A stretch of DNA of 64,000 nt from an uncultured Bacteroidales bacterium (lineage in GTDB: Bacteria; Bacteroidota; Bacteroidia; Bacteroidales; UBA932): NCBI GenBank assembly GCA_900318445.1, contig ONKO01000011.1, positions 1 to 64,000 of the forward strand, read 5' to 3'. The notes under the pieces are model-generated. The model was not told where the DNA came from and ran no database searches. It saw only the letters and a program-made list of their open reading frames with translations. Shown piece after piece: positions 95-62,885 of the stretch (its first letter is position 1; each line of letters opens with the position of its first letter). A program made the position numbers and the translations under genes.

Positions 95-1906
95 ATGAAA
101 AGACTGTTCATTTCCGTGGTTTTGGGACTCGTCGCCTGGTCCCTGCCGGCTCAGGAGGAGTCGGTCATCAGGGCGGCCTTGTATCTTTCGGGGGCTGCGT
201 CGGAGGAGGAGATTCCGGCCGATTTGCCGGAGCGTCTGGAAGCCGCGGCAGTCGTGCGCATCAACAACCCGCATCTTCGCGCGAACCTGTTAATAAGCGA
301 CTACCAGGCCGCCTCCATCCGCGATTACCGCGCAGCGTACGGCGACATCCTGTCGGCCGAGGAGCTTGCCCTCGTGGACGGCTTCGGCCCCGTCGCCGCC
401 GCTGCGCTCGCCCCCTTTCTCTCCTTCACCTCCTACCGGCTTCCCGGGCAGGCCGATACCGTCCGCACCCGGGCGACCGCGCTCCTCCGCGGGGCGCTCA
501 CCACCCTCGGCGGCAAGCTCAAAGCCGGCGGAGAGCTCCCCCGCGCAGGCATCACCTGGCAGGCCGGCGGCGCCTGGCGAAGGGACGGCGTGTGGCGGGC
601 GCAGGCCGATGGCTCCGGGAAGGCCGATGGCTCGTTCTATGCCGATGCCACCCTCGGCCCCTGGCGCCTTCTCGCCGGCCATTTCAACGCCCGCTGGGGC
701 CAGGGCCTCGCCGCCTGGTCCGGCTTCTCGATGGAGAGCCTCTCCACCCTCGACGCCTTCCTGAAACGTCCCACCGGACTCTCTCCCGTATGGTCGTACG
801 CCCCCTCCGGCGTGCATCGCGGCGTGGCCCTCTCCTACGATAGGGCGCACATCCGCGCGGCGGGGTACATCGGCCAGCACAACGACTACGGCCTCCACGC
901 CGACTACCTCTCCCGCACCGCCCAGCTGGGCATCACCGCACTTTGGGCCGATGCCACCGGCTGCACCCTCGCCCTTGACGGCCGCCTCACCTCCCGCCAC
1001 GCCCTCCTCACGGCCGAACTCGCCTGCCGTTCCCGCTCCGTCGCCTTCAAAACCGCCGCCTCCGGCCGCTGGAACGACTCCTGGAAATGGGCGGCCCAGG
1101 CCCGCGCCCTCCCCCGCCGCTTCACCGGCAAAAAGTACGGCGAATACGGCGCCGCCCTGGGCCTCGCCTACGCCTCCCGAAGGGCCGGCAACACCGCTTC
1201 ATCAACGGCAACGGCCCACCGCGGAACCGACATAAACGGCGGGACGGGCCCGGCTGGCGGGACCCACACGGCATCAGTGACGGTCGACGCCTCGCTCCTG
1301 CCCATTCCAGGCACCGATCCCCGCCGCATCCAGATCCGCATCTACTCGCAGTGGCAGTGGCAGATTACCCCGTTCTGGCTCATCGACACCCGCGTCACCG
1401 AGCGCTACCGCAACTACGAATCGCCCCGCACCAGCCTCCGCGCCGACCTCAAGTTCACCTCCGCACCCACCTCGGCATCGGCATCGGCATCAGCATCGGC
1501 CCCATACACGGCATCGGTCAGCCCGGCCTATTGGCTCCTCACGGCACGGCTGGAGGCAGTCCGCTGCAGCATGTGGGGCTTCCTTACGTATGTGGAAGGC
1601 GGCCGCAAGAACGAGTCATCGGCCCTCTACCTGCGTATAACCGGCTTTTCCATTCCTGTCTGGGATGCCCGCATCTACTGCTACGAGCGCGATGCACCCG
1701 GCACCTTCTCTGTCCCTGCCTACAACGGCCGCGGTATCGCCTTCTCTGCCGTCGGCTCCCTGAAGCTCCGTCCATTCCGCAACCTAAGCCAGAGGCACCC
1801 ACTGCGGTTCTTCAGCCTGAAGGGCAACCTCCGCGCCGCCTGCCAGCTCCGCACCGACCGACGCCCTTCCTACACCCTCGCCCTGCAACTCCAGACCGAC
1901 TTGTAA
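95..1906 (+). CDS. Outer-membrane helix-hairpin-helix / beta-barrel-like protein
   Basis: A 603-residue secreted protein. A signal peptide (about residues 1-19, ending SLPAQ) is followed by a helical region, residues 20-110, with a helix-hairpin-helix-like stretch around the motif VDGFGPVAAAAL. The remainder is rich in alternating aromatic and polar residues and in Ala/Ser/Gly, as in an outer-membrane beta-barrel. Bacteroidota commonly carry proteins of this plan annotated as HhH/ComEA-like, of unknown role. A low-complexity Ser-Ala run (about residues 463-475, encoded by repeats of gcatcg) lies in the C-terminal half. It stands alone, with no operon partner downstream. DNA binding through the HhH is inferred from the fold only. 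The start at 95 gives a good signal peptide; an SD-like TGGAGG at 61-66 serves a tiny 4-codon frame instead. Confidence 0.7.
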   Translation: MKRLFISVVLGLVAWSLPAQEESVIRAALYLSGAASEEEIPADLPERLEAAAVVRINNPHLRANLLISDYQAASIRDYRAAYGDILSAEELALVDGFGPVAAAALAPFLSFTSYRLPGQADTVRTRATALLRGALTTLGGKLKAGGELPRAGITWQAGGAWRRDGVWRAQADGSGKADGSFYADATLGPWRLLAGHFNARWGQGLAAWSGFSMESLSTLDAFLKRPTGLSPVWSYAPSGVHRGVALSYDRAHIRAAGYIGQHNDYGLHADYLSRTAQLGITALWADATGCTLALDGRLTSRHALLTAELACRSRSVAFKTAASGRWNDSWKWAAQARALPRRFTGKKYGEYGAALGLAYASRRAGNTASSTATAHRGTDINGGTGPAGGTHTASVTVDASLLPIPGTDPRRIQIRIYSQWQWQITPFWLIDTRVTERYRNYESPRTSLRADLKFTSAPTSASASASASAPYTASVSPAYWLLTARLEAVRCSMWGFLTYVEGGRKNESSALYLRITGFSIPVWDARIYCYERDAPGTFSVPAYNGRGIAFSAVGSLKLRPFRNLSQRHPLRFFSLKGNLRAACQLRTDRRPSYTLALQLQTDL

Positions 1907-1909
1907 CCA

Positions 1910-2101: not shown

Positions 2102-2140
2102 GAACCAGTCCAAAACACACGAAAAAGCCAGCAACGTCAT

Positions 2141-2191: not shown

Positions 2192-2220
2192 CGGGTTTTG
2201 CGCCGTTTTCGCCAAAATGC

Positions 2221-2275: not shown

Positions 2276-2371
2276 GGGCGTGTCAGGTGAGCACATGGAA
2301 CGTCGCAGGTGGGTAAGCGAGAAGTAACAGCCATTTATCCCGTGGCGCCTATGGTGCTAATTATCAATTAA

Positions 2372-2418: not shown

Positions 2419-2444
2419 CAGACTGAAAATAAGCAGATTAACCG

Positions 2445-2668: not shown

Positions 2669-2692
2669 TAAAATTTATATACCAAAACTGCT

Positions 2693-5170
2693 ATGCATAG
2701 GATATTCCTTCCATTATACAACTTCTTCCAGGGGCACAAGGCCCTGATGTGGATCCTCCTCATCTCAAGCACGGTCGTATTTGCCTGGTTCGGCATCAAG
2801 CTCCGCTATGAGGAAGACATCATGAAACTCTTGCCGGAGACAGAAGAGTCTACAGAACTGGCTTTCGGCGAAATCGACCTCAAGGAGAAAGTCTTCATCC
2901 AGGTAACCTCGCGGGACACCCTCCATCCGGTGAATCACCTCGTGCTGGGACAGGCCGTGGAGGAGTTCTGCGACCTGCTTCAGAAGCGGGATTCATCCAG
3001 CCACCTCATCAGGGGCATCCTTTCCAGCATGGACATCGAAGCCGGCCTCTCTGCCATGGAATACGGCCTGGCCCACATTCCGTCCTTCATGGACACCACC
3101 TGGTACCCACTCATCGAGAAAGCCCTGACCCCGGAAGCCATCCAGGCCCAGATGCTCGAAAACGCCCACCTCATCATGGAAGATGAAACCGGCGACGACA
3201 CCCAGCTGGTCTCCATGGACCCCCTGGCCCTCAGAAAAATATTCCTGGAGACCCTCTCGGGAGACATGTCCGGCAGCTACAACATCGCAGACGGCCATTT
3301 CTTCTGCCTGGACAAGAGCGTAGCCCTGGCCTTCCTCGCCCCCTCCTTCATCTCCACAGACTCCGGCAAAGGCACCCGCCTTGTCAAGATGATCGACAAA
3401 GCCCGGAAAGACTTCGAAGCCGCCAACCCCGAACTCCGCGTCCTCGTACACGGCAACCCCATGGGCAGCGTCTCCAACGCCGGCACCATCAAACGGGACC
3501 TGGTCTGGACCATCGGCCTGTCCCTCCTCCTCATCCTCATTATCATGGTGCTCAGCTTCCATAACCTCGGCTTCATCCTGCACCAGATCCTCCCCGTCAT
3601 CTACGGCGCCCTCTTCTCCATGGCCTGCATGTACTGGCTCAAAGGCTACATGTCCCTCATGGCCCTGGGCCTTGGCGCCATCATCCTCGGCGTCGCCATC
3701 AGCTACTGCCTCCACGTACTCATCCACTTCTACTACGTAGGAGACGTCCAGAAAATGCTCCGCGACGAGAGCACCCCCGTCGTCCTCGGCTGCATCACCA
3801 CCGTAGGCGCCTTCCTGGGCCTCCTGTTCACCGAAAGCGACCTCCTGAGGGACTTCGGCCTCTTCGCCACCTTCTCCCTCCTTGGCAACACCTTCTTTGT
3901 CCTGGTGTTCCTCCCCCACTTCCTCCACCCCGGCCAGATCAAGTTCAAGCGCACCCACGGTTTCCCCCTCGTCGAGCGCTTCAACGCCCTGCCCTGGGAC
4001 CGCAGCAAATGGTTCATCGGAACGCTCATCGTCCTCATCGTGGTGGGTATCGCCTTCAGCCCCCGCGTCAAGTTTGACAGCGACCTCATGAACCTGGACT
4101 ACGACGACCCCTTCCTTGTGGAAAGCCAGGAACTCTACAACCGCACCAACGCCGACGGCAAAACCCACATGTACTTCGCTGCCTGGGACGACGCCAGCCT
4201 GGATGCCGCCCTCGAATACAACAAGGCCATCTTCCCCGCCCTCGATTCCCTCAAGGCACAGGGCCTTGTCTACTCCTACAGCCCCGTCACCCGCCTCCTC
4301 CTGCAGTCCACCGAAGACCAGAAGACCCGCATCGACGCCTGGAACGCCTTCTGGAACAAAGCCCGCGTAGCCCGCCTCAAACGGGACCTCGGCGCCGCAG
4401 CCGCAGAAAACAACCTGCCCTACAACCTCTTCGACCCCTTCCTGGACATCATCTCGAGGCAATATGAGCCCGACAACCTGTTCGAGTCCGGCGTAGTTCC
4501 CCCGGGCCTTCTCTCCAACTTCGTGGAGAAGCAGGAAAGCGGCCGCTACATGGTATTCACCGATGTCTCCTACGCCCATGAGAACCAGACGGCCGTCTGG
4601 GATGCCCTCACTACCCTGCCCCACGTCTTTGTCCTGGAGCCCTTCTACTACTGCAAAGACCTCGTTCAGGTCATCCACGACGACTTCAGCACCACCCTCT
4701 GGATCTCCAGCCTGTTTGTCTTCATTGTCCTTTTAATCAGCTTCCGGAACATCTGGATCGCCCTCGTGGCCTTCTTCCCCATGTTCATCAGCTGGTACGT
4801 CATGCAAGGCTACATGGCCCTCCTGGGCCTCGAATTCAACCTGATCAACATTGTCATCGCCACCTTCATCTACGGTATCGGCGTAGACTACAGCATCTTT
4901 GTGATGGAAGGCCTGCTCGCCGAAGCCCGAAAAGGCGAAACCCGCATGCTGGACTATCACAAAGCCGCCATCTTCTACAGTGCCCTCATCCTGGGCATCG
5001 TTGTCTTCTCCCTCATCTTTGCCACGCATCCGGCCATCCATTCCATCGGCCTCATCACGCTCATCGGCATGGCTTCCACCATCCTCATCACGTACTCCCT
5101 GCAGCCCTGGATCTTCCGCATGCTCACAAAGATTCCCTTCTTCAGAAAATCCTTCCGAATTCCCGAATGA
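2693..5170 (+). CDS. MMPL/RND-family transporter
   Basis: An 825-residue inner-membrane protein with duplicated RND/MMPL architecture: a first TM helix at about residues 15-36, a large extracytoplasmic loop, a block of five or six TM helices (about 265-425), another helix near 443, a second large loop, and a final TM block (about 660-815). GVAISYCLHVLIHFYY in the first block and GIGVDYSIFVMEG in the second match the TM4 motifs of the family; the second carries the in-membrane Asp expected for proton relay. Family members export lipids or hydrophobic molecules using the proton motive force. It heads an operon of fatty-acid and phospholipid genes and shares ATGA with fakA, so a lipid substrate is a reasonable inference. 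The exact cargo is unknown. Confidence 0.85.
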   Translation: MHRIFLPLYNFFQGHKALMWILLISSTVVFAWFGIKLRYEEDIMKLLPETEESTELAFGEIDLKEKVFIQVTSRDTLHPVNHLVLGQAVEEFCDLLQKRDSSSHLIRGILSSMDIEAGLSAMEYGLAHIPSFMDTTWYPLIEKALTPEAIQAQMLENAHLIMEDETGDDTQLVSMDPLALRKIFLETLSGDMSGSYNIADGHFFCLDKSVALAFLAPSFISTDSGKGTRLVKMIDKARKDFEAANPELRVLVHGNPMGSVSNAGTIKRDLVWTIGLSLLLILIIMVLSFHNLGFILHQILPVIYGALFSMACMYWLKGYMSLMALGLGAIILGVAISYCLHVLIHFYYVGDVQKMLRDESTPVVLGCITTVGAFLGLLFTESDLLRDFGLFATFSLLGNTFFVLVFLPHFLHPGQIKFKRTHGFPLVERFNALPWDRSKWFIGTLIVLIVVGIAFSPRVKFDSDLMNLDYDDPFLVESQELYNRTNADGKTHMYFAAWDDASLDAALEYNKAIFPALDSLKAQGLVYSYSPVTRLLLQSTEDQKTRIDAWNAFWNKARVARLKRDLGAAAAENNLPYNLFDPFLDIISRQYEPDNLFESGVVPPGLLSNFVEKQESGRYMVFTDVSYAHENQTAVWDALTTLPHVFVLEPFYYCKDLVQVIHDDFSTTLWISSLFVFIVLLISFRNIWIALVAFFPMFISWYVMQGYMALLGLEFNLINIVIATFIYGIGVDYSIFVMEGLLAEARKGETRMLDYHKAAIFYSALILGIVVFSLIFATHPAIHSIGLITLIGMASTILITYSLQPWIFRMLTKIPFFRKSFRIPE

Positions 5171-6765
5171 ACTTAGACGCGACACTTTACCTGAACCTCA
5201 TCCGCGGCGGCGCCGCCCGTCTCAGTGAAGACCGCGAGAGCATCAACGAGCTCAACGTCTTCCCCATCCCCGACGGCGACACCGGCGACAACATGTACAT
5301 GACCATCGAGGCCGGCACGCACATCAAGGCCGATGGTACCCTGTCCGAAGCCGCAGAAGCCATCTCGAGGGGCATGCTCATGGGCGCCCGCGGCAACTCC
5401 GGCGTCATCCTTTCCCGCATCTTCGCGGGCCTCACCAAAGGTTTCCAGGGCCTGAAGGAGGCCGATGTCCCCGCCTTCACTGAGGCCATGAAATCGGCCG
5501 TCAGCGAGGCCTACCACGCCGTCTCCCAGCCCGTCGAAGGCACCATCCTCACCGTCCTGAGGGAAGGCGTCGCCGCGGCCGAAGGATCGGCCAGCCTGGA
5601 AGAATACTTTGACCTCTGGATTGCCGGCATGGACCTGAGCCTCCAGCACACCCCCGAACTCCTGGACGTCCTCAAAAAAGCAGGCGTGGTGGACAGCGGA
5701 GGTGCAGGCCTCCTGAGCATTGCCGAGGGCATGCGCGACGCCCTGCACGGAAAATCCCAGATCGAAGTCGGAGAGGAAAAAGCCGTTAAGGCAACCCCTG
5801 TCAACTTCGACGCTTTCACGGAAGACAGCGTCCTGGAGTTTGGCTACTGCACGGAGTTCCTCCTGCGTCTCCAGCGCAGCAAAGTAGACCTGGAGCACTT
5901 TGACGAAAACGTAATCAAGAACTGGCTCCAGGAACAGGGAGACTCCCTCGTGTTCTTCCGCGACGGCAGCATCATAAAAGTGCACGTCCACACCAAAGAC
6001 CCCGGCGCCATCCTCACCCGCTGCCGTGAATGGGGAGAGTTCCTCACCATCAAGGTGGAGAACATGACCCTGCAGCACCACGAGAACCACATGGACGAGC
6101 GCTATAAGCGCGCCCCCAAAGACCTGGCCACCGTCACGGTAGCCGCCGGCAAAGGCCTCACCCAGTGCTTCAAGGACATGGGCGTCGACGCCGTCATCGA
6201 GGGCGGCCAAACCATGAATCCCTCCGTAGAGCGTTTCCTGGAAGCCTTCCGGGAAGTGAACGCCCGCACCATCCTGGTGTTCCCCAACAACAGCAACATC
6301 ATCCTTACGGCCCAGCAGGCCGCCGAGATGTATGCCGATTCCACCGTTGTCGTCATTCCCACCAAAACCCTCGGCGAAGGCTATTACGCGCTCGCAAACC
6401 TGGACGCCAGCCTTCCCGTGGAGGAAATGACCGCATCCCTGACAGAAGCCGCCGCAGCCGTCACCACCGGCGCAGTTTCCCGCGCCATCCGCGACACCGC
6501 CGAGGCCCACGCCGGAGAGTACATCGGCTTTAGCGGGAAAGACATCCTCGTGGCAGCACCCGCCCGCGAAGAAGCCCTGTGTACGCTCGCCCATAAGTTG
6601 AACGCCTCCTCCTCCGACGTCCTCATCCTCTTCTCCGGGGCCGATGCTCCCGCCGACGAAGCCGCCCGCATCAAAGCCCGCCTGGAAAAAGCATACCCCA
6701 TGACCGAAGTCATCCTCCATGACGGAGGACAACCCGTTTACGACTATATTCTCGTTCTATGCTAA
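5167..6765 (+). CDS. fakA: Fatty acid kinase catalytic subunit (DAK2/YloV family)
   Basis: At 532 residues it has the normal length for YloV/FakA. The N-terminal DAK2 (DhaL-like) ATP-binding domain shows ELNVFPIPDGDTGDNM near residue 30, with the Asp residues that coordinate Mg-ATP, and MGARGNSGVILS near residue 75. The C-terminal part (from about 315) is the DegV-like/FakA domain. FakA phosphorylates a fatty acid held by a FakB protein to give acyl-phosphate. The start overlaps the upstream stop as ATGA, and the end overlaps the next gene, a DegV/FakB protein, by 7 nt. That immediate pairing supports the fatty acid kinase assignment over dihydroxyacetone kinase. Confidence 0.9.
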   Translation: MNLDATLYLNLIRGGAARLSEDRESINELNVFPIPDGDTGDNMYMTIEAGTHIKADGTLSEAAEAISRGMLMGARGNSGVILSRIFAGLTKGFQGLKEADVPAFTEAMKSAVSEAYHAVSQPVEGTILTVLREGVAAAEGSASLEEYFDLWIAGMDLSLQHTPELLDVLKKAGVVDSGGAGLLSIAEGMRDALHGKSQIEVGEEKAVKATPVNFDAFTEDSVLEFGYCTEFLLRLQRSKVDLEHFDENVIKNWLQEQGDSLVFFRDGSIIKVHVHTKDPGAILTRCREWGEFLTIKVENMTLQHHENHMDERYKRAPKDLATVTVAAGKGLTQCFKDMGVDAVIEGGQTMNPSVERFLEAFREVNARTILVFPNNSNIILTAQQAAEMYADSTVVVIPTKTLGEGYYALANLDASLPVEEMTASLTEAAAAVTTGAVSRAIRDTAEAHAGEYIGFSGKDILVAAPAREEALCTLAHKLNASSSDVLILFSGADAPADEAARIKARLEKAYPMTEVILHDGGQPVYDYILVLC

Positions 6766-7625
6766 AAATTTACACTGACACTGATACCGATTTCTACCCG
6801 GCCCTGGCTGCCGAGTACGGTTACAAACTCATCTCCATGCCCTACAGCATCGACGCCAAAACCGTGTACCCGTATGTGGATTTTGACAGCTTCGATGCCC
6901 ATGCCTTCTACGACATCCTCCGCGGCGGCGTCCTTCCCACCACCAGCGCCATCTCCCGCGAACAGTACCTCCAGTACTTCGAGGAAGACTTCAAGGCCGG
7001 CAACGAAATCCTCTACGTGCACTTCTCCCGTGCCATGACCAATACCTTCGACGCCATGGACCAGGCCGTGACCCAGCTCAAGGCCCAGTACCCGGCCGCC
7101 CGCTTCGAGGAAATTGACACCAAGGGCATCACCACCATCAGCTACGCCATCGTGCGCGAGGTGGGAGACCTCGTGAAAGCCGGCAAAACCCTGGACGAGA
7201 TCCTGGAATGGGCCAAGGCCGAGGTAGACCACTTCGCCATGTATTTCTTTGCCGATGACCTCAAGTTCTTCCGCCGCAGCGGCCGCGTGAGCGGGCTCGC
7301 CGCCACCATGGGAACCCTCATCGGCGTACGTCCCCTCATCCACATGAGCAAGGAAGGCAAGATGGTGTCCGTGGGTACCGCCAAAGGCCGCCAGAAAGCC
7401 ATCCAGTACCTGGTGGACAAAGTGGGAGAGCTGGGAGACGAGATTGAAAAGCACCGCATCTGCATCGGCCACACCGACGCCCCCGAAATTGCCCGCACCA
7501 TCGCCGGCCTCATCGAGGAGCGCTATGGCAAGCAGGATATCGTATATGTAGACGTGAACCCCACCGCCGGCAGCCACTGCGGCCCCAACGGCGTGGGCGT
7601 CTGTTTCCATGCCAAGAGCCGGTAA
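6759..7625 (+). CDS. fakB: DegV-family fatty acid-binding protein (FakB)
   Basis: A 288-residue DegV protein. It begins with a Dxx(D/S)-type strand (YTDTDTDF), contains TTSAISREQY (fatty-acid carboxylate loop, residues about 65-75) and FFRRSGRVSG with GTLIGVRPLIHM, characteristic DegV signatures. DegV/FakB proteins bind a fatty acid and present it to FakA for phosphorylation. Seven bases of overlap with fakA indicate translational coupling. Chain-length preference cannot be read from the sequence. Confidence 0.88.
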   Translation: MLKIYTDTDTDFYPALAAEYGYKLISMPYSIDAKTVYPYVDFDSFDAHAFYDILRGGVLPTTSAISREQYLQYFEEDFKAGNEILYVHFSRAMTNTFDAMDQAVTQLKAQYPAARFEEIDTKGITTISYAIVREVGDLVKAGKTLDEILEWAKAEVDHFAMYFFADDLKFFRRSGRVSGLAATMGTLIGVRPLIHMSKEGKMVSVGTAKGRQKAIQYLVDKVGELGDEIEKHRICIGHTDAPEIARTIAGLIEERYGKQDIVYVDVNPTAGSHCGPNGVGVCFHAKSR

Positions 7626-8754: not shown

Positions 8755-9770
8755 TCAAGATCATTGTTGACTGTTTTGGCGGAGACCACTGCCCCGAAGC
8801 ACCCGTAGAAGGCGCTCTGGCATCCCTGGCGAAGAACCCGGACCTTTCCGTCATCCTTACGGGTGATGAGTCCATTCTGCGCAAGTGCCTGGAGGGAAAG
8901 ACCTACGATGCGTCCCGCCTGGAGATTGTGGATGCGCCGGAGGTCATCGGCTGTGATGAAAAACCCACGGACGTCGTCCGCCTCAAGCGCAACTCGTCCA
9001 TGATGAAAGGCATTATTATGCTAAGGGACCGTGACGACATTGCCGCCATGGTTTCCACCGGCTCCACCGGAGCGCTGGTAACGGGCGCACTGGTGCGGCT
9101 CGGCCGCATCCCGGGGGTCATCCGTCCGGCCTTCTGCCCGCTCCTCCCCACCATGGACGGAGGCATCGTGGGCGTCTGTGACAGCGGTGCCAACGTCGAA
9201 GTGACATCGGCCCACCTCCGTCAGTTCGCCATCATGGCGTCCCTCTACCTGGAGAACGTGTACGGCGTAAAGAGCCCCCGCGTGGCGCTTCTCAACGTCG
9301 GGAAGGAGGCCGAGAAGGGGGACGACATGCGCCGGGACGCCTACCGCCTGCTGAGCGAGACGCCGTCCGTGAACTTCGTGGGCAACATGGAGAGCCGGGA
9401 CCTCCTCAGCGGCCGCTACGACGTAGTGGTGGCCGATGGTTTCTCCGGCAACGTCCTGGTCAAGACCACCGAAGGCACGGCGCTGGAGCTGCTCAAAAAG
9501 CTCAAAAAAGACATCTTCTCCCGCTGGATCTACAAGCTGGGAGCGCTCCTGATGAGCCGCATGTTCAAGGACATGAAGGCCTTCATGAACTACCAGAACT
9601 ATGGCGGAAGCGTGCTCCTGGGCACCTCCAAGGTGGTTGTGAAAGGACACGGCTCCTCCAAAGCGGTGGCGGTGGAGAAGTGCATCGAACAGGCCTACCG
9701 GATGGAAGTGTCCCGCCTGTCGGGCCAGATCGAGACCGAGATTGGAAAATATGAACATTACGAGGAATAA
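8751..9770 (+). CDS. plsX: Phosphate acyltransferase PlsX
   Basis: 339 residues, standard length. It starts IKIIVDCFGGDHCPEAPVEG, the PlsX opening motif (MDAMGGDxAP-like). Later come MVSTGSTGALVTGAL and VALLNVGKEAEKGDD, then VVADGFSGNVLVKTTEG, all family signatures. PlsX converts acyl-ACP and phosphate to acyl-phosphate for the PlsY step of phosphatidic acid synthesis. With fakA/fakB upstream and acpP immediately downstream, both routes to acyl-phosphate sit in one operon. The start at 8751 shares ATGA with the upstream stop; an earlier in-frame ATG (8718) lies inside the GNAT gene. Confidence 0.93.
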   Translation: MIKIIVDCFGGDHCPEAPVEGALASLAKNPDLSVILTGDESILRKCLEGKTYDASRLEIVDAPEVIGCDEKPTDVVRLKRNSSMMKGIIMLRDRDDIAAMVSTGSTGALVTGALVRLGRIPGVIRPAFCPLLPTMDGGIVGVCDSGANVEVTSAHLRQFAIMASLYLENVYGVKSPRVALLNVGKEAEKGDDMRRDAYRLLSETPSVNFVGNMESRDLLSGRYDVVVADGFSGNVLVKTTEGTALELLKKLKKDIFSRWIYKLGALLMSRMFKDMKAFMNYQNYGGSVLLGTSKVVVKGHGSSKAVAVEKCIEQAYRMEVSRLSGQIETEIGKYEHYEE

Positions 9771-52028: not shown

Positions 52029-52032
52029 GCCG

Positions 52033-53952: not shown

Positions 53953-55026
53953 GTGAACGCATTTACCCGGAACATTCTTTTATGGTACTCGGAAAACGGG
54001 CGGGACCTTCCCTGGCGCCGTACCCGGGATCCGTATGCCGTCTGGCTCAGTGAGATTATCCTGCAGCAGACGCGCATCGCACAGGGAACGGCCTACTGGC
54101 ACCGTTTCATGGAGCGGTTCCCCACGGTGGAGCAGCTGGCCGGTGCCTCCGAGGACGAGGTGTTAAGGCTCTGGGAAGGCCTGGGCTACTATTCGCGCGC
54201 CCGGAATCTCCATGCCGCCGCCAAACAGATTGTTGCCGCCGGCGGGTTCCCCACCACCCTGGAAGGCATCAAGGCGCTGAAAGGCGTGGGTGATTACACG
54301 GCTGCCGCCATCGGGTCCATCTGCTTCGGACTTCCCGCCGCCGTCGTGGACGGCAATGTGTATCGGGTGCTGGCGCGCTATTTTGGCCTTGCCACCCCCG
54401 TTGGCACCACCGAGGCCAAGAAAGAATTCACCGCGCTGGCCCAGCAGCTGTTACCGGAAGAAGACCCCGCCGCCTTCAACCAGGGCATGATGGATTTTGG
54501 CGCCATGCAGTGCACGCCGCAGAGCCCGGGCTGCCTCACCTGCCCCCTTCAGAGCACCTGCAATGCCTTCCGCACCGGCCGCATCGCGCTCCTCCCCGTC
54601 AAAAAAGCGCCCGTAGCCGTGCAGGAACGCCACTTTGACTATATTTACGTGCGCTGTAACGGCTACACCGCCATCCGGCGCCGCGGCCCCGGTGACATCT
54701 GGCAAGGGCTGTATGAGCCGGTGGTGATGGAGCGCGAAAGTTCATCTATGCGCGCGGGCGTTGCGATGGCCAAAGAAAAATGGTTTTTCGGGCCCCTCCC
54801 CGAAAAATATTTTTCTTCGGCCGGTGGCCAGGCAGAACCAAAATTAATCAAAAAAGGCGTGAAGCACCAGCTCACGCACCGTACTTTGATTGTAGATTTC
54901 TACGTTTGGGAAACATCGGCCCGTCCTTCCCTTCCTGACGGCTACATCTGGATCCCCGAAACCACCCTTGACACCTACGCCAAGCCCCGACTTTTCGAAC
55001 TTCTCCTGGAGGCCGTACGATCTTAA
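53953..55026 (+). CDS. mutY: A/G-specific adenine glycosylase MutY
   Basis: 357 residues from GTG 53953; the residues NAFTRNILLWYSENGRDLPWRRTRDPYAVWLSEIILQQTR align with the normal MutY N-terminus. LKGVGDYTAAAIGSICFG is the HhH, VDGNVYRVLAR carries the catalytic Asp, and CTPQSPGCLTCPLQSTC is the CX6CX2CX5C iron-sulfur cluster. The C-terminal domain recognises 8-oxoG. It contains a repeat-derived insertion (about residues 263-294, GVAMAKEKWFFGPLPEKYFS). The final codons, including the TAA, belong to a 94-bp repeat. Confidence 0.93.
   Translation: MNAFTRNILLWYSENGRDLPWRRTRDPYAVWLSEIILQQTRIAQGTAYWHRFMERFPTVEQLAGASEDEVLRLWEGLGYYSRARNLHAAAKQIVAAGGFPTTLEGIKALKGVGDYTAAAIGSICFGLPAAVVDGNVYRVLARYFGLATPVGTTEAKKEFTALAQQLLPEEDPAAFNQGMMDFGAMQCTPQSPGCLTCPLQSTCNAFRTGRIALLPVKKAPVAVQERHFDYIYVRCNGYTAIRRRGPGDIWQGLYEPVVMERESSSMRAGVAMAKEKWFFGPLPEKYFSSAGGQAEPKLIKKGVKHQLTHRTLIVDFYVWETSARPSLPDGYIWIPETTLDTYAKPRLFELLLEAVRS
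54768..54822. repeat. In-frame palindromic element, copy 2 (in mutY)
   Basis: A 55-nt palindrome with arms ggccaaagaaaaat (54768-54781) and atttttcttcggcc (54809-54822), one mismatch, and inner arms tttttcggg/cccgaaaaa. The flank gcgcgggcgttgcgat precedes it. Relative to the gene it is in the opposite orientation to the other three copies, yet still open. The 27-nt module is absent. Confidence 0.93.
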
Positions 55027-56642: not shown

Positions 56643-57872
56643 ATGAACATGGAACAGATCTTAATTCGCATTTCCGGCAAAGACCGCGTAGGCCTTACGG
56701 CCGAGGTCATGGCCATTCTGGCCCGGTACGACGCCCAGATCCTGGACATCGGCCAGGCCGACATCCACAGTACCCTGTCGCTGGGCATCCTCATCCGAAT
56801 AGACGACAAAGCGTCGGGGCAGGTGATGAAGGAACTCCTGTTCAAAGCCACCGAGATTGGGGTGAACATCGGCTTCGAGCCCATCACCGACGACGAATAC
56901 GAGGCCTGGGCCGGCCGCCAGGGCAAGAACCGCTACATCCTTACGGTCATCGGCCGCAGCCTCAGTGCCGGGCAAATCCAGTCGGCCGCAGAGATCGTCG
57001 CCCGCCACGGCCTCAACATCGATGCCATCAAACGCCTCACCGGCCGCATGAGCGTCAAGCACCCGGAACGGAATGTCCGCGCCTGCGTGGAATTCTCCAT
57101 CCGGGGCACGCTGGAAGACAAACGCGCCTTCCAGAAGGAGCTCATGGCCCTTTCCTCCGACAGCGGCATGGATTTCTCCTTCCAGAAGGACGACATGTAC
57201 CGCCGTATGCGCCGGCTCATCTGCTTTGATATGGACTCCACGCTCATCCAGGCCGAGTGCATCGATGAGCTCGCCCGCCGTCATGGCGTATATGACAAAG
57301 TTGCGGCCATCACCGAGCGCGCCATGCGGGGAGAGATCGATTTCAAAGAGAGCTTCACCGAGCGCGTGGCACTCCTCAAGGGCCTTGACGTTTCCGTCAT
57401 GCGGGACATCGCCGAGAATCTGCCCATTACCGAAGGCACCGACCGCCTTATGAGCGTTCTCAAGACCTGCGGCTACAAGATTGCCATCCTCAGCGGCGGA
57501 TTCACTTTCTTTGGAGAGTACCTGCAGCGCAAATACGGCATTGACTACATCTATGCCAACGAACTGGAAATCGGAGAGGACGGCAAGCTCACCGGCCGCT
57601 ATGTGGGAGACGTCGTGGACGGCCGCCGCAAGGCAGACCTCCTCAAGCTCATCGCCCAGACAGAGAAGGTGAACATTGCCCAGACCATTGCCGTAGGAGA
57701 CGGTGCCAACGACCTTCCCATGCTGCTGGAAGCCGGCCTGGGCATCGCGTTCCATGCCAAACCGCGCGTGAAGGAAACCGCCCGCCAGAGCCTGAGCACC
57801 ATCGGCCTGGACGGCGTGCTCTACTTCCTGGGCTTCAAGGACAGCCACCTGGGAGAGCAAGGCCGGCTTTAA
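56643..57872 (+). CDS. serB: Phosphoserine phosphatase with N-terminal ACT domains
   Basis: 409 residues (an alternative ATG is two codons later). Two ACT domains: EQILIRISGKDRVGLTAEVMAIL and a second from YILTVIGRSLSAGQIQSAAEIV. HAD phosphatase motifs: CFDMDSTLIQAECIDELA (DxDxT), AILSGGFTFFGEYLQ, and VGDGANDLPMLLEAGLGIAFHAKP. This is the last step of serine synthesis; the ACT domains suggest serine feedback. A 94-bp repeat begins 11 nt after the stop. Confidence 0.95.
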   Translation: MNMEQILIRISGKDRVGLTAEVMAILARYDAQILDIGQADIHSTLSLGILIRIDDKASGQVMKELLFKATEIGVNIGFEPITDDEYEAWAGRQGKNRYILTVIGRSLSAGQIQSAAEIVARHGLNIDAIKRLTGRMSVKHPERNVRACVEFSIRGTLEDKRAFQKELMALSSDSGMDFSFQKDDMYRRMRRLICFDMDSTLIQAECIDELARRHGVYDKVAAITERAMRGEIDFKESFTERVALLKGLDVSVMRDIAENLPITEGTDRLMSVLKTCGYKIAILSGGFTFFGEYLQRKYGIDYIYANELEIGEDGKLTGRYVGDVVDGRRKADLLKLIAQTEKVNIAQTIAVGDGANDLPMLLEAGLGIAFHAKPRVKETARQSLSTIGLDGVLYFLGFKDSHLGEQGRL

Positions 57873-57990: not shown

Positions 57991-59316
57991 ATGAAGAGAA
58001 TTGCCATCATCGGAGCCGGAGCGGCGGGGTGCTACTGCGCCGCGCAGCTTCGTCAGATGAAGGCCGATGCTGAGATCACCGTCTTTGAAGCGGGGAGCAA
58101 ACCGCTCGCCAAAGTAGCCATCACCGGCGGCGGAAGGTGCAACCTCACCAACGATTTCGAAGGAATCAGGAGCCTGGCCGATGCCTACCCGCGGGGCGAA
58201 CGCCTCATGAAACGCGCCCTCAAGGCCTTCTCGCAGCACGACACCATCTCCTGGTTCACCGCCCAGGGCGTTCCCTGCGTCCTGCAAGACGATCACTGCT
58301 GGTTTCCGCAGTCGCAGGATGCCATGGACGTTGTCCGGGCACTCCTCAGGGCCATGAAGGGGGTTGACCTTAGACTCAATACTAAAGTTGTAAGTATCTC
58401 TTGTCATTCTGAGCGAAGCAATCCCGCTGGGCCATCGGCCGAAGGAATTTATTTTTCGGGCTTGCGCCCGAAAAACCAAATTCCTTCGGCCATCGCAACG
58501 CCCGCGCGCGCCTGTCATTATGAGCCTTCCTTCTGTCATTCTGAGCGAAGCGAAGAATCTACGGGTTATCTTGTCAATGGCGAGCCGTTCGATGCGGTGG
58601 TGGTGACAACGGGCGGGGCGCAGCGGTTTCCGTTTCTGGAGGGGCTGGGGCTGGAGATGGTGGAGCCGGTGCCGTCGCTGTTTACGTTCAATGTGCCGGA
58701 CAAGGGTCTCAGGGCGCTGATGGGCCTGGTGGTGGAGGCACAAGTGGGGCTGCAGGGCACGGCGTTCAAGGCGGAGGGGCCGCTGCTCATTACCGACTGG
58801 GGGCTCAGCGGGCCGGCGGCGCTCAAGTTGTCGTCGTATGCGGCACGGTATCTGGCAGAAAACGGGTATCAGGGAACGGTGGGCATCAACTGGCTCAGCG
58901 CCAACGAGGGCGAGGTGCGGGCACGGCTGCAGGAGGCATCGGCCCGGAATCCGCAGAAGCAGATGTCCAACACGCCCCTGCTGCAACAGCGGCTGTGGGA
59001 GCACCTGGTTCAAAGGGCGGGCCTCAGGCCGGATATCCGCTGGGCGGAGCTCGGGAGCAAGGGGCTCAACCGGCTCACGGCGGTGCTCACCAACGACACG
59101 TACCCGGTGAGCGGCAAGAGCAAGTTCCGGGAGGAGTTTGTTACGGCGGGCGGCGTTGCGCTGTCGCAGCTGGACCTGGGAACGCTGGAGTGCAAGACGC
59201 ATCCCGGCCTCTATTTTGCCGGCGAGGTGCTGGACGTGGACGCCATTACCGGCGGGTTCAACCTGCAGGCGGCGTGGAGTACGGCTTTTTTATGTGCAAA
59301 AGCGCTTGCTAAATAA
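57991..59316 (+). CDS. BaiN/HI0933-family FAD-dependent oxidoreductase
   Basis: 441 residues. IAIIGAGAAGCYCAAQL (FAD Rossmann), KVAITGGGRCNLTND (family signature) and the C-terminal GLYFAGEVLDVDAITGGFNLQAAWSTAFLCAKAL are diagnostic for the HI0933/YhiN/BaiN family, flavoproteins of mostly unknown substrate. Residues about 138-190 are an in-frame repeat insertion, CHSERSNPAGPSAEGIYFSG..., ending CHSERSEES, inserted within the middle domain after the strand ending LNTKVVSI. The rest of the fold appears intact. Confidence 0.9.
   Translation: MKRIAIIGAGAAGCYCAAQLRQMKADAEITVFEAGSKPLAKVAITGGGRCNLTNDFEGIRSLADAYPRGERLMKRALKAFSQHDTISWFTAQGVPCVLQDDHCWFPQSQDAMDVVRALLRAMKGVDLRLNTKVVSISCHSERSNPAGPSAEGIYFSGLRPKNQIPSAIATPARACHYEPSFCHSERSEESTGYLVNGEPFDAVVVTTGGAQRFPFLEGLGLEMVEPVPSLFTFNVPDKGLRALMGLVVEAQVGLQGTAFKAEGPLLITDWGLSGPAALKLSSYAARYLAENGYQGTVGINWLSANEGEVRARLQEASARNPQKQMSNTPLLQQRLWEHLVQRAGLRPDIRWAELGSKGLNRLTAVLTNDTYPVSGKSKFREEFVTAGGVALSQLDLGTLECKTHPGLYFAGEVLDVDAITGGFNLQAAWSTAFLCAKALAK
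58402..58560. repeat. In-frame palindromic element, copy 3 (in flavoprotein gene)
   Basis: The longest copy: a partial 27-nt module (58402-58419), the 55-nt palindrome (58437-58491, arms perfect), the conserved flank catcgcaacgcccgcgcg, a degenerate module (58513) and a full 27-nt module (58534-58560). The + strand reads AEGIYFSGLRPKNQIPSAIA, the same peptide as copies 1 and 4. Confidence 0.95.
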
Positions 59317-60632: not shown

Positions 60633-61884
60633 ACTGCATGCCGCAGTTCCGTGCAAAAGCAGCGTCGGAGGGGCTGTCCCCTACCATGACGCTGCTTTTC
60701 GCGTCAATCTCCGGGAACAACTGCTGCGCCTCCAAAAACATGCCGGTGTTAGGCTTGCGACGGGCGTCATCGTCCGAGACCGCCGTGCAGTAGAGCGCCA
60801 GGTCCAGCCGCCCGCCGGCCGCAAGAATATCGGCCATCATCCCTGCGTGGATGCGCGAAAGGTCCTCGTCCGACATCACGCCCTTCCCCACCCCGCGCTG
60901 GTTGCTCACCAGCACGATGCGCCGGAACTTGCCCGCCCACCGGGGGAACTCCTCCAGCACGCCGGGCATCCATTCCCACATCGCGGGCGTGCGCACATAA
61001 TCCCCCGGCAGATGCCGGTTGAGCACCCCGTCGCGGTCCAGGAAAAGGGTATCGGCCGATGCTTCCATGAGGGCCGATGACACCCGCTTCACCGCTTTCC
61101 ACGCCGGCAGCGCCCACTGCGCCCGCTCGTAGTCCTCGGGAACGCCGATGTCGATGAAATACGCGTCGGAAACCACGCCACCCACCTCGCCGATGGCCGC
61201 ACCCGGCTCCAGCACCTCCTTTTCGAAGGAGAACCGCTCCGGCAAACTGCTCAGATCCAGCCTGCTGCGGTCAATGGCATACACCCCGCCATTAATGAGC
61301 CCTTCAGCGCAATGCTGCTTCTCCTTAAACGCGATAATATTGTGCGTTGGCGTTGCGATGGCCGAAGGAATTTGGCTTTTCGCAAAGCCTTGCGAAAAAT
61401 AAATTCCTTCGGCCGCAGGCCTTTCGGAAACAGATTCTTCGTGGCGCTCAGAATGACAATTATCAATAACCACCGTACCATAGCGGTCAAAGTCCTTCAT
61501 AGGCTTGAGGGCCAAGGTAATAGGTTTATCGAAAGAAAAAAACGTAAGGTCTACCGGATAGAACGTATCGCCATTCACCACAAATACGTGGTCCCCCTTG
61601 CACATATCCAGCGCCAGGCGAATGCCGCCTCCCGTTCCGAGGGGTTCCTCCTCCACGGCAAAGTCGTAGGAAAAGGGCCACTCATGGTCCTTAACAAAGT
61701 CGATAATCTGCTCCCGCAGATATCCCACAGAGAACACCACATGCTCTACCGGATAGGCCGACAGCCAGTCCAGGAGATACTGAAGGAAAGGCACACCGCC
61801 AACGGGTGCCAGACACTTAGGAATTTCATGGATAACGGAGCGGAGCCTCGTACCCAGGCCGCCGGCAAGGACTATAACTTCCAT
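60601..61884 (-). CDS. HddC-GmhB fusion: heptose-1-P guanylyltransferase and heptose bisphosphate phosphatase
   Basis: 427 residues. The N-terminal nucleotidyltransferase starts VIVLAGGLGTRLRSV and continues with CLAPVGGVPFLQYLLDWL and FVVNGDTFYPVDL. The C-terminal HAD-IIIA phosphatase starts near residue 282: LFLDRDGVLNRHLPGDYVR, VLVSNQRGVGKG, KPNTGMF and VMVGDSPSDAAFARNCG, as in GmhB. Together they perform two non-consecutive steps of GDP-D-glycero-alpha-D-manno-heptose synthesis. Residues about 143-179 are a repeat-derived in-frame insertion (CHSERHEES, then AEGIYFSQGFAKSQIPSAIA), at the beta-turn between VVIDN and IIAFKEK. Confidence 0.9.
   Translation of the reverse strand: MEVIVLAGGLGTRLRSVIHEIPKCLAPVGGVPFLQYLLDWLSAYPVEHVVFSVGYLREQIIDFVKDHEWPFSYDFAVEEEPLGTGGGIRLALDMCKGDHVFVVNGDTFYPVDLTFFSFDKPITLALKPMKDFDRYGTVVIDNCHSERHEESVSERPAAEGIYFSQGFAKSQIPSAIATPTHNIIAFKEKQHCAEGLINGGVYAIDRSRLDLSSLPERFSFEKEVLEPGAAIGEVGGVVSDAYFIDIGVPEDYERAQWALPAWKAVKRVSSALMEASADTLFLDRDGVLNRHLPGDYVRTPAMWEWMPGVLEEFPRWAGKFRRIVLVSNQRGVGKGVMSDEDLSRIHAGMMADILAAGGRLDLALYCTAVSDDDARRKPNTGMFLEAQQLFPEIDAKSSVMVGDSPSDAAFARNCGMQFILLSPEAVS
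61360..61458. repeat. In-frame palindromic element, copy 4 (in heptose fusion gene)
   Basis: 55-nt palindrome at 61360-61414 (arms ggccgaaggaattt and aaattccttcggcc perfect; the inner loop differs from the other copies, ttttcgca/tgcgaaaa, a compensated change) and a 27-nt module at 61432-61458. The gttgcgat flank is present. On the - strand the peptide is AEGIYFSQGFAKSQIPSAIA. Confidence 0.95.
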
Positions 61885-62885
61885 GCGACGGCGCCTTTTT
61901 CGGTGAACTGGAAGGGCACCACTTTACCCGGGAGCGCCTGGAGGGCTTCGATCACCTCCACGCGTCTGGTGGGATTGACCATGAACATCATGAAGCCGCC
62001 GCCACCGGCACCGGAGACTTTTCCGGAGATGGCGCCGGCCGACATGGCCACGTCAAAGGCCTCCTGGATCATGGGATTGGTAATGGCATCGGCCATCTTC
62101 TTCTTCTCTTCCCAGGCCAAGCCCAGGATGGTGGCAAAGGCCGCCATGTCTCCGCGAAGGAGAGCCAGTTTCATCTCGATGGTGCTCTGCTTGATGCGGT
62201 GCATGGCCTCAATGGCGGTCTCGGAGCCTTCACGGGCGGCTTTTTGCTGCTCGGCAATGATGTGCGCGCCCTCGCGGCTACGACCAGTGAAATAGAGAAC
62301 CATACTACCCTCGAGCTCTGCCACAATCCAGGGCTTTACCCGGAGCGGGTTCACAATCACCATGTCGGAGGGCAGGAATTCCATAAAGTTGAAGCCGCCA
62401 AAGGCAGCGGCATACTGGTCCTGCTTGCCGCCGGCAAGAGCAAGGTCTTTCCGTTCAATTTCGTAGGCGAGACGCGCTAGCTCGTAGTCTCCAAGGGGAA
62501 GTCCCATCCACTCGGCGAAGCACTTGATAATGCAAACAACCATAGTGGACGACGTTCCCAGACCGGAGCCGGCAGGGGCGTCATTGTAAGTAGTAATGGC
62601 AAAGCCGGCCGATGGTACCGGGCCGAAGTCCTTCACGATGCGGGCGTAGACCCCGTCAATCAGACGCGCCCCGGAAGGCTGCCCCACGGGGACCACGGCC
62701 TTCACGGAAGCATCGGCCGCATTGACCTGCATGACGGGAGTATCCAGCGGCTCGATGGTGCAATAGGCCGCCAGGTTGATGGTGGCATTGAGGACGTAAC
62801 CGCCGAACATATCGGAATAGGGCGACACATCGGTTCCGCCGCCGGCCAGTCCCAGCCGGAGGGGGGCTTTGCTGCGGATGATCAT
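61872..62885 (-). CDS. hddA: D-glycero-D-manno-heptose-7-phosphate kinase (GHMP kinase)
   Basis: 337 residues. IIRSKAPLRLGLAGGGTDVSPYSDMFGG is the HddA-type N-terminus; APAGSGLGTSSTMVV is the GHMP ATP-binding motif 2, and GKVSGAGGGGFMMFM is motif 3. It forms heptose-1,7-bisphosphate from heptose-7-phosphate. It overlaps the HddC-GmhB gene by 13 nt, so three of the GDP-heptose steps are in two genes; the isomerase GmhA is outside the window. Heptose would go to LPS core or surface glycoprotein. Confidence 0.9.
   Translation of the reverse strand: MIIRSKAPLRLGLAGGGTDVSPYSDMFGGYVLNATINLAAYCTIEPLDTPVMQVNAADASVKAVVPVGQPSGARLIDGVYARIVKDFGPVPSAGFAITTYNDAPAGSGLGTSSTMVVCIIKCFAEWMGLPLGDYELARLAYEIERKDLALAGGKQDQYAAAFGGFNFMEFLPSDMVIVNPLRVKPWIVAELEGSMVLYFTGRSREGAHIIAEQQKAAREGSETAIEAMHRIKQSTIEMKLALLRGDMAAFATILGLAWEEKKKMADAITNPMIQEAFDVAMSAGAISGKVSGAGGGGFMMFMVNPTRRVEVIEALQALPGKVVPFQFTEKGAVAWKL

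Follow-up and report, generated by a model that had tools for sequence, protein, structure and literature searches.

The window analysed here, 64,000 nucleotides in length, comes from the genome of an uncultured Bacteroidales bacterium belonging to a branch found mostly in the ruminant gut. Near its left end lies a gene whose 603-aa product has, as judged by eye, a signal-like N-terminus and a barrel-like remainder, together with a helix-hairpin-helix (HhH) stretch that matches PF12836/ComEA weakly. Dispersed through this gene and the rest of the window, from position 604 to position 62718, are 64 copies of a non-palindromic octamer, 33 of which read as CATCGGCC and 31 as the different word GGCCGATG on the plus strand; among 100 dinucleotide shuffles the mean was 3.9 copies and the largest number 10. 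The first-pass annotation had estimated about 58 copies (31 and 27), real and slightly understated, against roughly three expected, and had remarked on the near-equal orientations and on a density like that of the DNA uptake signals DUS and USS. The HhH gene and the copies are listed below; every copy is CATCGGCC on the strand given.

95..1906, plus, HhH gene, 603-aa product; six motif copies inside
604..611, minus, A-D frame
622..629, minus, A-D frame
868..875, plus, I-G frame
946..953, minus, A-D frame
1494..1501, plus, x-S-A frame
1617..1624, plus, x-S-A frame
3511..3518, plus, I-G frame
5044..5051, plus, I-G frame
5328..5335, minus, A-D frame
5460..5467, minus, A-D frame
6639..6646, minus, A-D frame
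7463..7470, plus, I-G frame
9205..9212, plus, x-S-A frame
9431..9438, minus, A-D frame
9961..9968, minus, A-D frame
10336..10343, minus, A-D frame
13435..13442, plus, x-S-A frame
13580..13587, plus, I-G frame
14673..14680, plus, I-G frame
16315..16322, plus, x-S-A frame
16976..16983, minus, I-G frame
17894..17901, minus, A-D frame
23582..23589, minus, I-G frame
23984..23991, minus, I-G frame
24171..24178, minus, x-S-A frame
25686..25693, minus, A-D frame
26614..26621, plus, x-S-A frame
27011..27018, plus, I-G frame
29876..29883, plus, x-S-A frame
30489..30496, plus, I-G frame
32044..32051, plus, x-S-A frame
32359..32366, plus, x-S-A frame
34132..34139, minus, A-D frame
37119..37126, plus, x-S-A frame
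38298..38305, minus, A-D frame
39449..39456, plus, x-S-A frame
39737..39744, minus, A-D frame
42043..42050, minus, A-D frame
45032..45039, minus, I-G frame, aconitase-family gene; shared by 7 of 30 orthologues, counting this one
45213..45220, minus, x-S-A frame, aconitase-family gene; shared by 16 of 30 orthologues, counting this one; first residue A/S/T
47242..47249, plus, in ORF 47111-48883 (minus), missed by the gene caller
47398..47405, plus, in ORF 47111-48883 (minus)
47648..47655, minus, in ORF 47111-48883 (minus)
49120..49127, plus, A-D frame
49192..49199, minus, I-G frame
50668..50675, minus, I-G frame
50893..50900, plus, A-D frame
51077..51084, minus, I-G frame
51278..51285, plus, A-D frame
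52028..52035, minus, spans the junction of two genes
52216..52223, plus, H-R-P frame
54914..54921, plus, x-S-A frame
56747..56754, plus, I-G frame
56948..56955, plus, I-G frame
57800..57807, plus, I-G frame
58062..58069, minus, in ORF 57991-59316 (plus)
58176..58183, minus, in ORF 57991-59316 (plus)
58433..58440, plus, in ORF 57991-59316 (plus)
58937..58944, plus, x-S-A frame
61054..61061, minus, x-S-A frame
61072..61079, minus, x-S-A frame
62087..62094, plus, A-D frame
62607..62614, minus, x-S-A frame
62711..62718, plus, A-D frame

Abundance and placement of the word

The density seen in the window extends to the whole of the bacterium's own genome (2.31 Mb), which holds 2058 copies of CATCGGCC/GGCCGATG (1037 and 1021 in the two orientations), or about one per 1.1 kb, compared with 222 for a reversed control word. 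By first-order z-score no other 8-mer of the window ranks higher than CATCGGCC. It also leads, by second-order z-score, in 753 kb sampled from the own genome (687 copies against 66.9 expected), a Markov-model comparison of the general kind that the annotation had proposed for the whole genome. Higher-order Markov expectations are larger (132 at order 3, 242 at order 4 and 551 at order 5) because such models absorb the word itself, a fault from which the codon-shuffle tests described below are free.

Strand polarity is absent. Over 18 contigs the two orientations are balanced (chi-square 18.4, p 0.43), and a 314-kb contig carries them in a ratio of 144/136, with no clear bias in its 50-kb blocks; on these findings we reject a polar word of the Chi/KOPS type, in line with the annotation's remark that the octamer is unlike such motifs. 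Spacing is nearly random (CV 1.13), with no sign of the regular spacing that we sought, and the 7.7 kb of DNA between convergent genes, with 1 copy, are not enriched in the word. Among plus-minus pairs within 120 bp, six share a 4-bp overlap and the remaining 16 lie at 16 different distances; the DUS/USS trait of pairing inverted copies in the terminators of convergent genes was not found. In 16.9 kb of strictly intergenic DNA the word occurs 4 times, where 0.36 copies were expected and the reversed control word occurs once. This figure replaces a first one (43 in 96.7 kb against 3.0), which was contaminated by genes that the gene caller missed and is unreliable because 6 of the 7 uncalled copies in the window sit in missed ORFs. 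The word occurs twice in 9.6 kb of L039, a phage-like contig, which is too few for a conclusion.

Codon use, conservation and core of the word

After synonymous shuffling, about 102 coding copies were expected and 640 were observed, with an excess in all six frame/strand classes; for the form nCA-TCG-GCC, the figures were 3.9 and 179. Under a stricter null that keeps two bases of context on each side, the expectations rose to 126 and 85, against 342 and 298 observed, and that for nCA-TCG-GCC to 26.7, so that the excess outlasts the codon-pair bias that the annotation had named as a possible refutation. (In the I-G and A-D frames the word is written mostly in preferred codons.) The window holds 18 x-S-A sites, among them, to within 3 bases, all nine at which the annotation had pointed to unusual serine codons. 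In [A/T/S/P]-Ser-Ala contexts, TCG makes up 265 of 423 serine codons, compared with 14.0% of all serine codons and 12.9% outside the motif, which is the enrichment that the annotation had asked about. The least codon-adapted genes carry the word most densely (1.29 vs 0.69 per kb).

The annotation had further claimed that the DNA rather than the protein is conserved, and comparison of orthologues upholds this. TCG is retained at 339 of 416 motif serines compared with 951 of 3716 other serines, and where an nCA codon has come to encode a different residue its CA ending is kept at 128 of 226 motif sites compared with 124 of 2683 others; at the aconitase site, for example, orthologues carry GCA, ACA or TCA followed by TCG-GCC, encoding A/T/S-S-A. 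As a complete 8-mer, however, the word is retained in orthologues no better than many others (384 of 1076 and 942 of 1916, ranking 1351 and 793 among 2272 words). The sequence flanking motif sites changes at an above-average rate, and the sites therefore turn over.

The consensus is H-ATCGGC-C, with C or T and less often A as its first base, and the inner core is the part least tolerant of change. One-off variants are enriched at positions 1 and 8, and several one-off core variants fall under expectation (CATCGGAC, 11 vs 32.1; CATCAGCC, 20 vs 45.7). Of 479 orthologous one-mismatch sites, 148, 139 and 134 deviate at positions 1, 2 and 8, respectively. By frame, and with a pattern partly confounded by codon preference, third-codon changes in the I-G frame number 129 at position 1 compared with 0 and 3 at positions 4 and 7, deviations in the A-D frame number 3 at position 5 compared with 119 and 60 at positions 2 and 8, and those in the x-S-A frame 13, 20 and 54 at positions 5, 2 and 8. 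Codon preference can account for much of the position-5 retention in the A-D frame. The much stronger retention of position 5 relative to positions 2 and 8 that the pooled sites suggested therefore holds in the A-D frame and only weakly in the x-S-A frame. T is about as enriched as C at position 1 (196/32 and 640/103 in the own genome, G000; 58/6.3 and 107/15.9 in G019), and A about as enriched as C at position 8 in G051/54/57 only (24/5.6 and 20/4.1, from 56 kb of coding DNA); dialect differences between clade members are thus slight at best. Relative to matched dipeptide controls the flanks favor particular bases only weakly, chiefly at -2, -1 and +8, the single large value (-1 in the I-G frame) being based on just 97 controls.

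Spread among relatives and possible explanations

In a survey of the genus, 46 of 400 genomes had 900 or more copies (hand count). The comparison with relatives that the annotation had suggested confines the excess to one nested clade, which contains the word-rich species (2 changes, vs 11.3 for shuffled labels) and within which the density ratio is 3 to 14; one member of the clade, G034, is poor in the word. A search of five groups of poor species found no comparable second word, the best alternative by z-score being TCCGGAA in group P4 (113 vs 38), and no clade-specific gene was found. Because genomes near background, intermediates and genomes with about 2000 copies coexist in the same genus, the gain and spread of the word could be traced on a tree; known uptake-signal cases are, to our knowledge, old and family-wide. 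The word may thereby bear on the old question of how genomes acquire uptake-signal-like words, and whether drive or function comes first. The evidence for a mosaic ancestry of the aconitase gene of G051 is only suggestive (topologies 33 log units apart, p-AU 0.102, in a case chosen after data inspection).

Candidate uptake genes give a mixed picture. None of 28 word-rich genomes has a type IV pilus/T2SS ATPase (PF00437) over cut-off, and the five of 52 genomes that do are all motif-poor; uptake by a type IV pilus was rejected on this result. ComEC, one of the competence genes that the annotation had recommended looking for, occurs in 117 of 121 genomes and does not separate rich from poor. The own ComEC is short at its C-terminal end (361 aa), its competence domain stopping at model position 234 of 270, and close to ComEC L037 encodes a helicase whose sequence looks AddA-like by eye. 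A regular-expression scan for DprA, ComM, ComF, HhH proteins and TonB barrels matched RecA alone, and carries little weight because its patterns were crude (the HhH gene of the window was missed) and it covered a third of the own genome. The product of 95..1906 might, speculatively, be a candidate DNA-uptake protein, and is not part of the motif; relatives of it were sought in plasmids and solved structures and none was found. The uptake-signal reading of the annotation thus holds as regards density, use of both orientations, lack of polarity and conservation of the DNA. A classical uptake signal is unsupported because no type IV pilus/T2SS ATPase lies over cut-off in the 28 rich genomes tested, ComEC is found in rich and poor species alike and is short in the own genome, and the word shows no excess between convergent genes.

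We propose, tentatively and with a probability of roughly 40%, that the octamer is a word for self-recognition and that biased exchange of DNA has spread it; we read it as a word that may work like an uptake signal, without filing it as DUS or USS. The clade-specific, non-palindromic octamer would be a DNA recognition word, which a putative DNA-binding protein of these Bacteroidales would read in double-stranded DNA on either strand. Related cells would take up or recombine fragments bearing the word in preference to others, and copies would spread and then be kept by biased homologous replacement (molecular drive), up to about one per kb. The uptake machine would not be a type IV pilus, in keeping with what has been proposed for Riemerella. 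(One conceivable non-pilus route is an outer-membrane barrel whose partner is a helix-hairpin-helix or TonB-receptor protein.) The data show a genome-wide excess beyond codon use, conservation at the level of the DNA, a core stricter than the ends, a lack of polarity and restriction to one clade, all of which speak for this reading; a protein that reads the word, DNA exchange as the drive and a non-pilus machine are inferred. The prevalence of ComEC and the HhH gene of the window would favor exchange, as would, by analogy, a transformation machinery in Riemerella unlike known ones. Against it count, on the gene side, the lack of a pilus ATPase over cut-off in the 28 rich genomes, a ComEC that does not tell rich from poor and is short in the own genome, and the lack of a clade-specific gene; further points against it are the ordinary 8-mer retention, the turnover of sites, the part of the position pattern that codon preference confounds, the small difference between positions 5 and 2 in the x-S-A frame, the density peak in the least codon-adapted genes, the slight dialects and the only suggestive mosaic ancestry. 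Somewhat more doubtful still is the suggestion that a DNA-uptake signal has here arisen independently once more, in Bacteroidota, without type IV pili and mid-spread in one genus. (Sister species without the word, plus intermediates, make up the mid-spread picture.) Should the word serve as a mark of self DNA, this would point to gene exchange that is sequence-selective, within a large group of gut bacteria for which the search for a uptake ATPase of the pilus type found none.

The main rival, which we consider unlikely, is an intracellular repair drive like that of the HIP words, in which mismatch repair or gene conversion, with no uptake, would turn near-matches into the word and protect them, the word itself being perhaps a by-product. 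In Elhai's account of cyanobacterial HIP1 (PMC4390886), the model saturates at one copy per 1000 nt, close to the one per 1.1 kb found here, and deviations occur mainly at the first and last base; the depletion of core variants also speaks for such a drive. HIP words are, however, palindromic and generally paired with a matching methyltransferase (some HIP1-rich genomes without a CGATCG methylase are described in the same paper), whereas this word is not palindromic and the rich genomes G169, G411 and G417 (MAGs 87-92% complete) have none of six DNA-methyltransferase families. We reject the six families as driver. In the own genome PF00145, PF01555, PF02384, PF20473 and PF02086 are without a match and PF07669 has one weak match (E 8e-5); across genomes the distribution of the six does not track word richness, PF01555 and PF02384 being rarer in rich genomes. 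These results leave the annotation's alternative of a methylation site unsupported, and a restriction-modification or methylation site is in our view very unlikely. An asymmetric 6-7 bp core suits a type IIG, III or BREX enzyme, as the core here would; sites under restriction are avoided, not enriched, and we see the opposite of avoidance, a tenfold excess over the second-order model.

A site for a nucleoid or chromosome-organising protein, selected copy by copy, is improbable. It would accord with a genome-wide, nearly random distribution in both orientations that includes strictly intergenic copies, but the spacing is not regular, no gene was identified, and selection strong enough to alter codons and residues at some 2000 mostly coding sites seems implausible without drive. 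Slightly less probable again is a Chi-like site, read on single-stranded DNA by an enzyme of the RecBCD/AddAB type and selected genome-wide because it stimulates recombination. A non-palindromic word of about 8 bp that lies in coding sequence and is kept at the DNA level is what such a site might look like, Chi words are clade-limited as this one is, and the AddA-like helicase near ComEC would supply a candidate enzyme; Chi words are usually leading-strand biased, however, and this word is not. Least probable of all is that the word merely reflects codon or codon-pair bias, or is an artefact of assembly. The mostly preferred codons of two frames, and the higher expectations of the context-keeping null, lend bias some substance, but the synonymous and context-keeping shuffles rule it out and the DNA of the word is kept where the residue changes; an artefact is ruled out by the occurrence of the word in MAGs from several separate projects.

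Comparison with known systems

Chi/KOPS-type words are, like this one, short, non-palindromic and in genome-wide excess in coding DNA; unlike them, the word has no polarity. HIP1 (GCGATCGC, cyanobacteria) is similar (PMC4390886) in its density of about one per kb, its clade-limited occurrence and its end-position variants, and differs in that the word here is non-palindromic and has no matching methyltransferase among the six families.

DUS of Neisseriaceae and USS of Pasteurellaceae resemble the word in being short, non-palindromic and present in hundreds to thousands of copies (PMC2346458), in both orientations and inside genes, and DUS have a strict inner core as well (core and dialects are treated in PMC3630211). 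The word differs from both in that no pilus/T2SS ATPase lies over cut-off in the rich genomes, there is no convergent-gene excess, dialects are slight at best and the phylum is another. In Riemerella, also of the Bacteroidota, the natural-transformation machinery is unlike known ones (PMC8459023), and the proposed set comprises ComEC, DprA, ComF, RecA, an HhH protein and a barrel that has a TonB-receptor-like domain. Neither 'uptake sequence' nor 'DUS' appears as a term in the Riemerella transposon-screen paper, nor does 'uptake sequence' in the Riemerella TonB paper. The likeness may lie in a possible non-pilus route, the own genome having both ComEC and an HhH protein with a weak PF12836 match.

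Abundance and arrangement of the octamer

The octamer CATCGGCC or its reverse complement GGCCGATG occurs 64 times in the window, compared with 3.9 copies expected from 100 dinucleotide-preserving shuffles (maximum 10 in any shuffle), and the whole source genome, G000 (2,308,810 bases in 32 contigs, 88% complete), contains 1037 forward and 1021 reverse copies, against 222 of a reversed-letter control word. These counts bear out the first-pass annotation, which had proposed a density like that of DNA uptake signals with the two orientations about equal. A Markov model, too, placed the word far above expectation: in a 753-kb sample of G000 (the window and further stretches), CATCGGCC was the top 8-mer, with 687 copies against 66.9 under a second-order model. 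In strictly intergenic DNA (no ORF of 100 aa), a small base, we found 4 copies against 0.36 expected, and one of the control word. The window's genes include those for SusC/SusD-type proteins; judging by titles, the records closest to it in our named collection come from uncultured Bacteroidales, for the most part of ruminant-gut origin.

Spacing of the copies is near random (CV 1.13; gaps shorter than 50 bp number 42, with 32 expected), and strand polarity was not found, either in a 314-kb contig (144/136), over 18 contigs (chi-square 18.4, p 0.43) or relative to coding strands (342 against 298), which agrees with the earlier remark that the word is unlike Chi or KOPS. Density falls from 1.29 per kb in the least codon-adapted fifth of genes to 0.69 in the most adapted, and the ratio to the null drops alongside (7.4 to 4.4). 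The biggest motif-free gap is 9.9 kb, with genes that by eye resemble a V-type ATPase operon.

Relative to the codon null, C (640/103), T (196/32) and A (92/25) are taken at position 1 and G is not (43/42), whereas at position 8 C is favoured, then A (215/86) and T (111/50), and G least (192/124). Under the second-order model, most one-off variants of the inner core do not exceed expectation (CATCGGAC, 11 versus 32; CATCAGCC, 20 versus 46; CATGGGCC, 41 versus 72), except those at position 6 (1.5-2.4 fold up), and position-2 variants are mildly up (1.5-1.6 fold). We write the word H-ATCGGC-C.

A dispersed repeat separate from the octamer, ACCTGCGACG, forms intergenic arrays in the window (2300-2546, minus strand) and in stretches L033, L034, L035, L036 and L038, with many copies 22 or 44 bp apart and an inverted GTCGCAG nearby; the second-order model predicts 1.6 copies in the 753 kb, and 41 are present, 38 of them outside called genes. 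In the same sample (window and L031-L070), GATC-containing words are scarce in some contexts: CGATCG occurs 32 times where the second-order model predicts 320 and the third-order one 207, and GGATCC 296 times against 684 by the second-order model, yet without depletion by the third-order one (246).

Codon use and conservation in orthologues

For the 572 genes called in the 753-kb sample with a simple codon-model caller, synonymous shuffles inside each gene gave 59 coding-strand copies of CATCGGCC and 43 of GGCCGATG, compared with 342 and 298 seen; under a stricter null that kept two context bases on each side of the shuffled codon, the expectations were 126 and 85. Codon-pair bias, which the first-pass annotation had held would undo its reading if it explained the enrichment fully, thus does not do so. 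The excess over the plain synonymous shuffles is found in each main reading frame (nCA-TCG-GCC, that is x-S-A, 179 versus 3.9; I-G, 155 versus 54; A-D, 283 versus 40) and in the three rare ones (8 versus 1.2, 9 versus 0.6, 6 versus 2.4). TCG makes up 14.0% of Ser codons overall and 12.9% without the motif; in [ATSP]-Ser-Ala it accounts for 265 of 423, an enrichment at the motif that had been proposed as a check. The tripeptides, too, are bent toward the motif, with 423 [ATPS]-S-A against 301 from residue frequencies in this genome and 880 other x-S-A against 905.

We compared orthologues in two sets chosen by motif ratio from 80 loci, whose pairs are not independent: the window together with 24 named loci rich in the motif (2998 directed reciprocal-best pairs; 24 of the 27 loci with ratio at least 6.7, leaving out L302, L322 and L331) and 25 motif-poor loci (2642 pairs; ratio at most 2.5, including L286, the locus of G034). 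In rich pairs with a conserved Ser, TCG was retained at 339 of 416 motif sites, compared with 951 of the 3716 TCG codons elsewhere and 216 of the 506 TCG-GCC that lack CA. At nCA codons whose residue had altered, the CA ending was kept at 128 of 226 motif sites versus 124 of 2683 codons elsewhere, as expected from the earlier claim that the DNA rather than the protein is conserved. Retention was likewise higher at motif sites for GAT (1125/1575 versus 7773/16703) and ATC-GGC (295/351 versus 1793/2314). The effect was absent at the few motif words of the poor set (GAT 11/44, ATC-GGC 20/47, nCA-TCG-GCC none).

At residues 631-633 of the aconitase-family gene (window 44817-47114), 16 of 30 genomes have GCA, ACA or TCA followed by TCG-GCC; the first residue varies and the DNA is constant. 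Among 479 orthologous sites with one mismatch, positions 1, 2 and 8 account for 148, 139 and 134 changes and the five inner positions for 58. By frame, third-base changes number 129, 0 and 3 at positions 1, 4 and 7 (I-G), 119, 3 and 60 at positions 2, 5 and 8 (A-D), and 20, 13 and 54 at positions 2, 5 and 8 (x-S-A), a pattern partly due to codon preference. Since retention of the whole octamer is ordinary (384/1076 and 942/1916; median word 40%) and the sequence flanking motif sites evolves at an above-average rate, sites turn over, with the core guarded while present.

The aconitase gene of L249 (G051) looks mosaic, its first 750 bp being closest to G054 (and G057) and the remainder, in most windows, to G169, G341 or G265, with a topology test that is not significant. 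The ORF at window 47111-48883 (minus strand) is by its sequence an apparent fusion of an N-terminal citrate lyase ligase and a C-terminal CitG-type triphosphoribosyl-dephospho-CoA synthase.

Distribution, methyltransferases and uptake genes

Motif counts range from 7 to 2061 among 400 genomes of the genus, G000 included, with at least 900 copies in 46 (hand count). Among 71 sampled genomes (G025 and G067, which had no sequence sample, lie outside them), 13 surpass the first-order expectation threefold or more (highest ratio 14.2), and the rest have ratios of 0.6-2.0. On a midpoint-rooted tree of 68 genomes, built by a quick method from five proteins around ComEC, the 12 rich species require two changes versus 11.3 with shuffled labels and form one nested clade containing one poor species, G034. 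The picture is alike in the named collection, where 27 of 80 loci reach a ratio of 6.7 or more, but that collection is not independent, as 21 of 29 unnamed relatives' aconitase loci occur there letter for letter. The suggested comparison with relatives finds richness limited to a clade, near-background counts in some genomes of the genus, and intermediates. Differences between sub-clades are slight: G051, G054 and G057 have CATCGGCA (24/5.6) enriched equally with CATCGGCC (20/4.1), and in G019 the enrichment of TATCGGCC (58/6.3) equals or exceeds that of CATCGGCC (107/15.9), G000 being roughly alike. No comparable word was found in five groups of poor species. In one of them, P4 (G007, G021, G026, G066, G056, G032, G024, G039, G059), TCCGGAA/TTCCGGA occurs 113 times versus 38, three times beyond codon use, inside the palindromic TTCCGGAA (24 versus 6.1).

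Six methyltransferase families (matches accepted at E up to 0.001) were sought in rich and poor genomes picked by hand from motif counts, the poor ones more complete on average. The proportions of rich and of poor genomes with a match were 11/33 and 13/31 for PF00145, 9/33 and 18/31 for PF01555, 9/28 and 15/24 for PF02384, 8/26 and 5/14 for PF20473, and 7/26 and 5/14 for PF02086; PF07669 passed the cut-off in 28 of 52 genomes altogether. G000 has one weak match to PF07669 and, in its 88% complete assembly, none to the other five, and no match to any of the six turned up in G169 (2061 copies), G411 or G417. These families do not follow richness, which argues against the methylation site offered earlier as an alternative.

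ComEC (PF03772) is present in 117 of 121 genomes and therefore does not discriminate rich from poor, and the secretion-type (II/IV) ATPase PF00437 passed the cut-off in 5 of 52 genomes, all poor, most others having a sub-threshold match (E near 1e-4). The ComEC of G000 (L037, 4085-5170, plus strand) has 361 aa, its competence domain match ending at model position 234 of 270; across the genus, most ComEC-like open frames are short, at about 350-430 aa. In Riemerella, transformation is reported to require ComEC, DprA, ComF, RecA, a helix-hairpin-helix protein and an outer-membrane protein bearing a TonB-receptor-type carboxypeptidase-regulatory-like domain, and to be lowered in SusC/RagA mutants (PMC8459023); tonB mutants are reported to be likewise impaired, one probably via iron (PMC8383284). 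One gene in the window is a lead here, not evidence:

Window 95-1906: candidate helix-hairpin-helix protein gene with six motif copies (PF12836 E 3e-4, below cut-off; ComEA model E 0.057)

By eye, its product has a signal-like start and a barrel-like remainder.

A proposed drive and its precedents

The presence of the word is best explained by a drive, because its roughly 2000 sites are mostly genic and bend residues, show no polarity, regular spacing or methylase (six families), and belong to one clade. Such a drive may be biased exchange of DNA between cells, for which the precedents are best; an internal repair drive, like that of the highly iterated palindrome (HIP) of cyanobacteria, comes next. 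In the open-licence literature searched, neither CATCGGCC nor GGCCGATG appears as a whole word, and a search for DUS in Bacteroidetes gave no match; three papers listed by another search deal, by their titles, with different subjects. The abundant octamers of PMC2843746 are purine and pyrimidine tracts, different from CATCGGCC. We do not file the word with DUS/USS, because one of their defining features was sought and not found. The P4 palindrome of the related species is HIP-like, though weaker.
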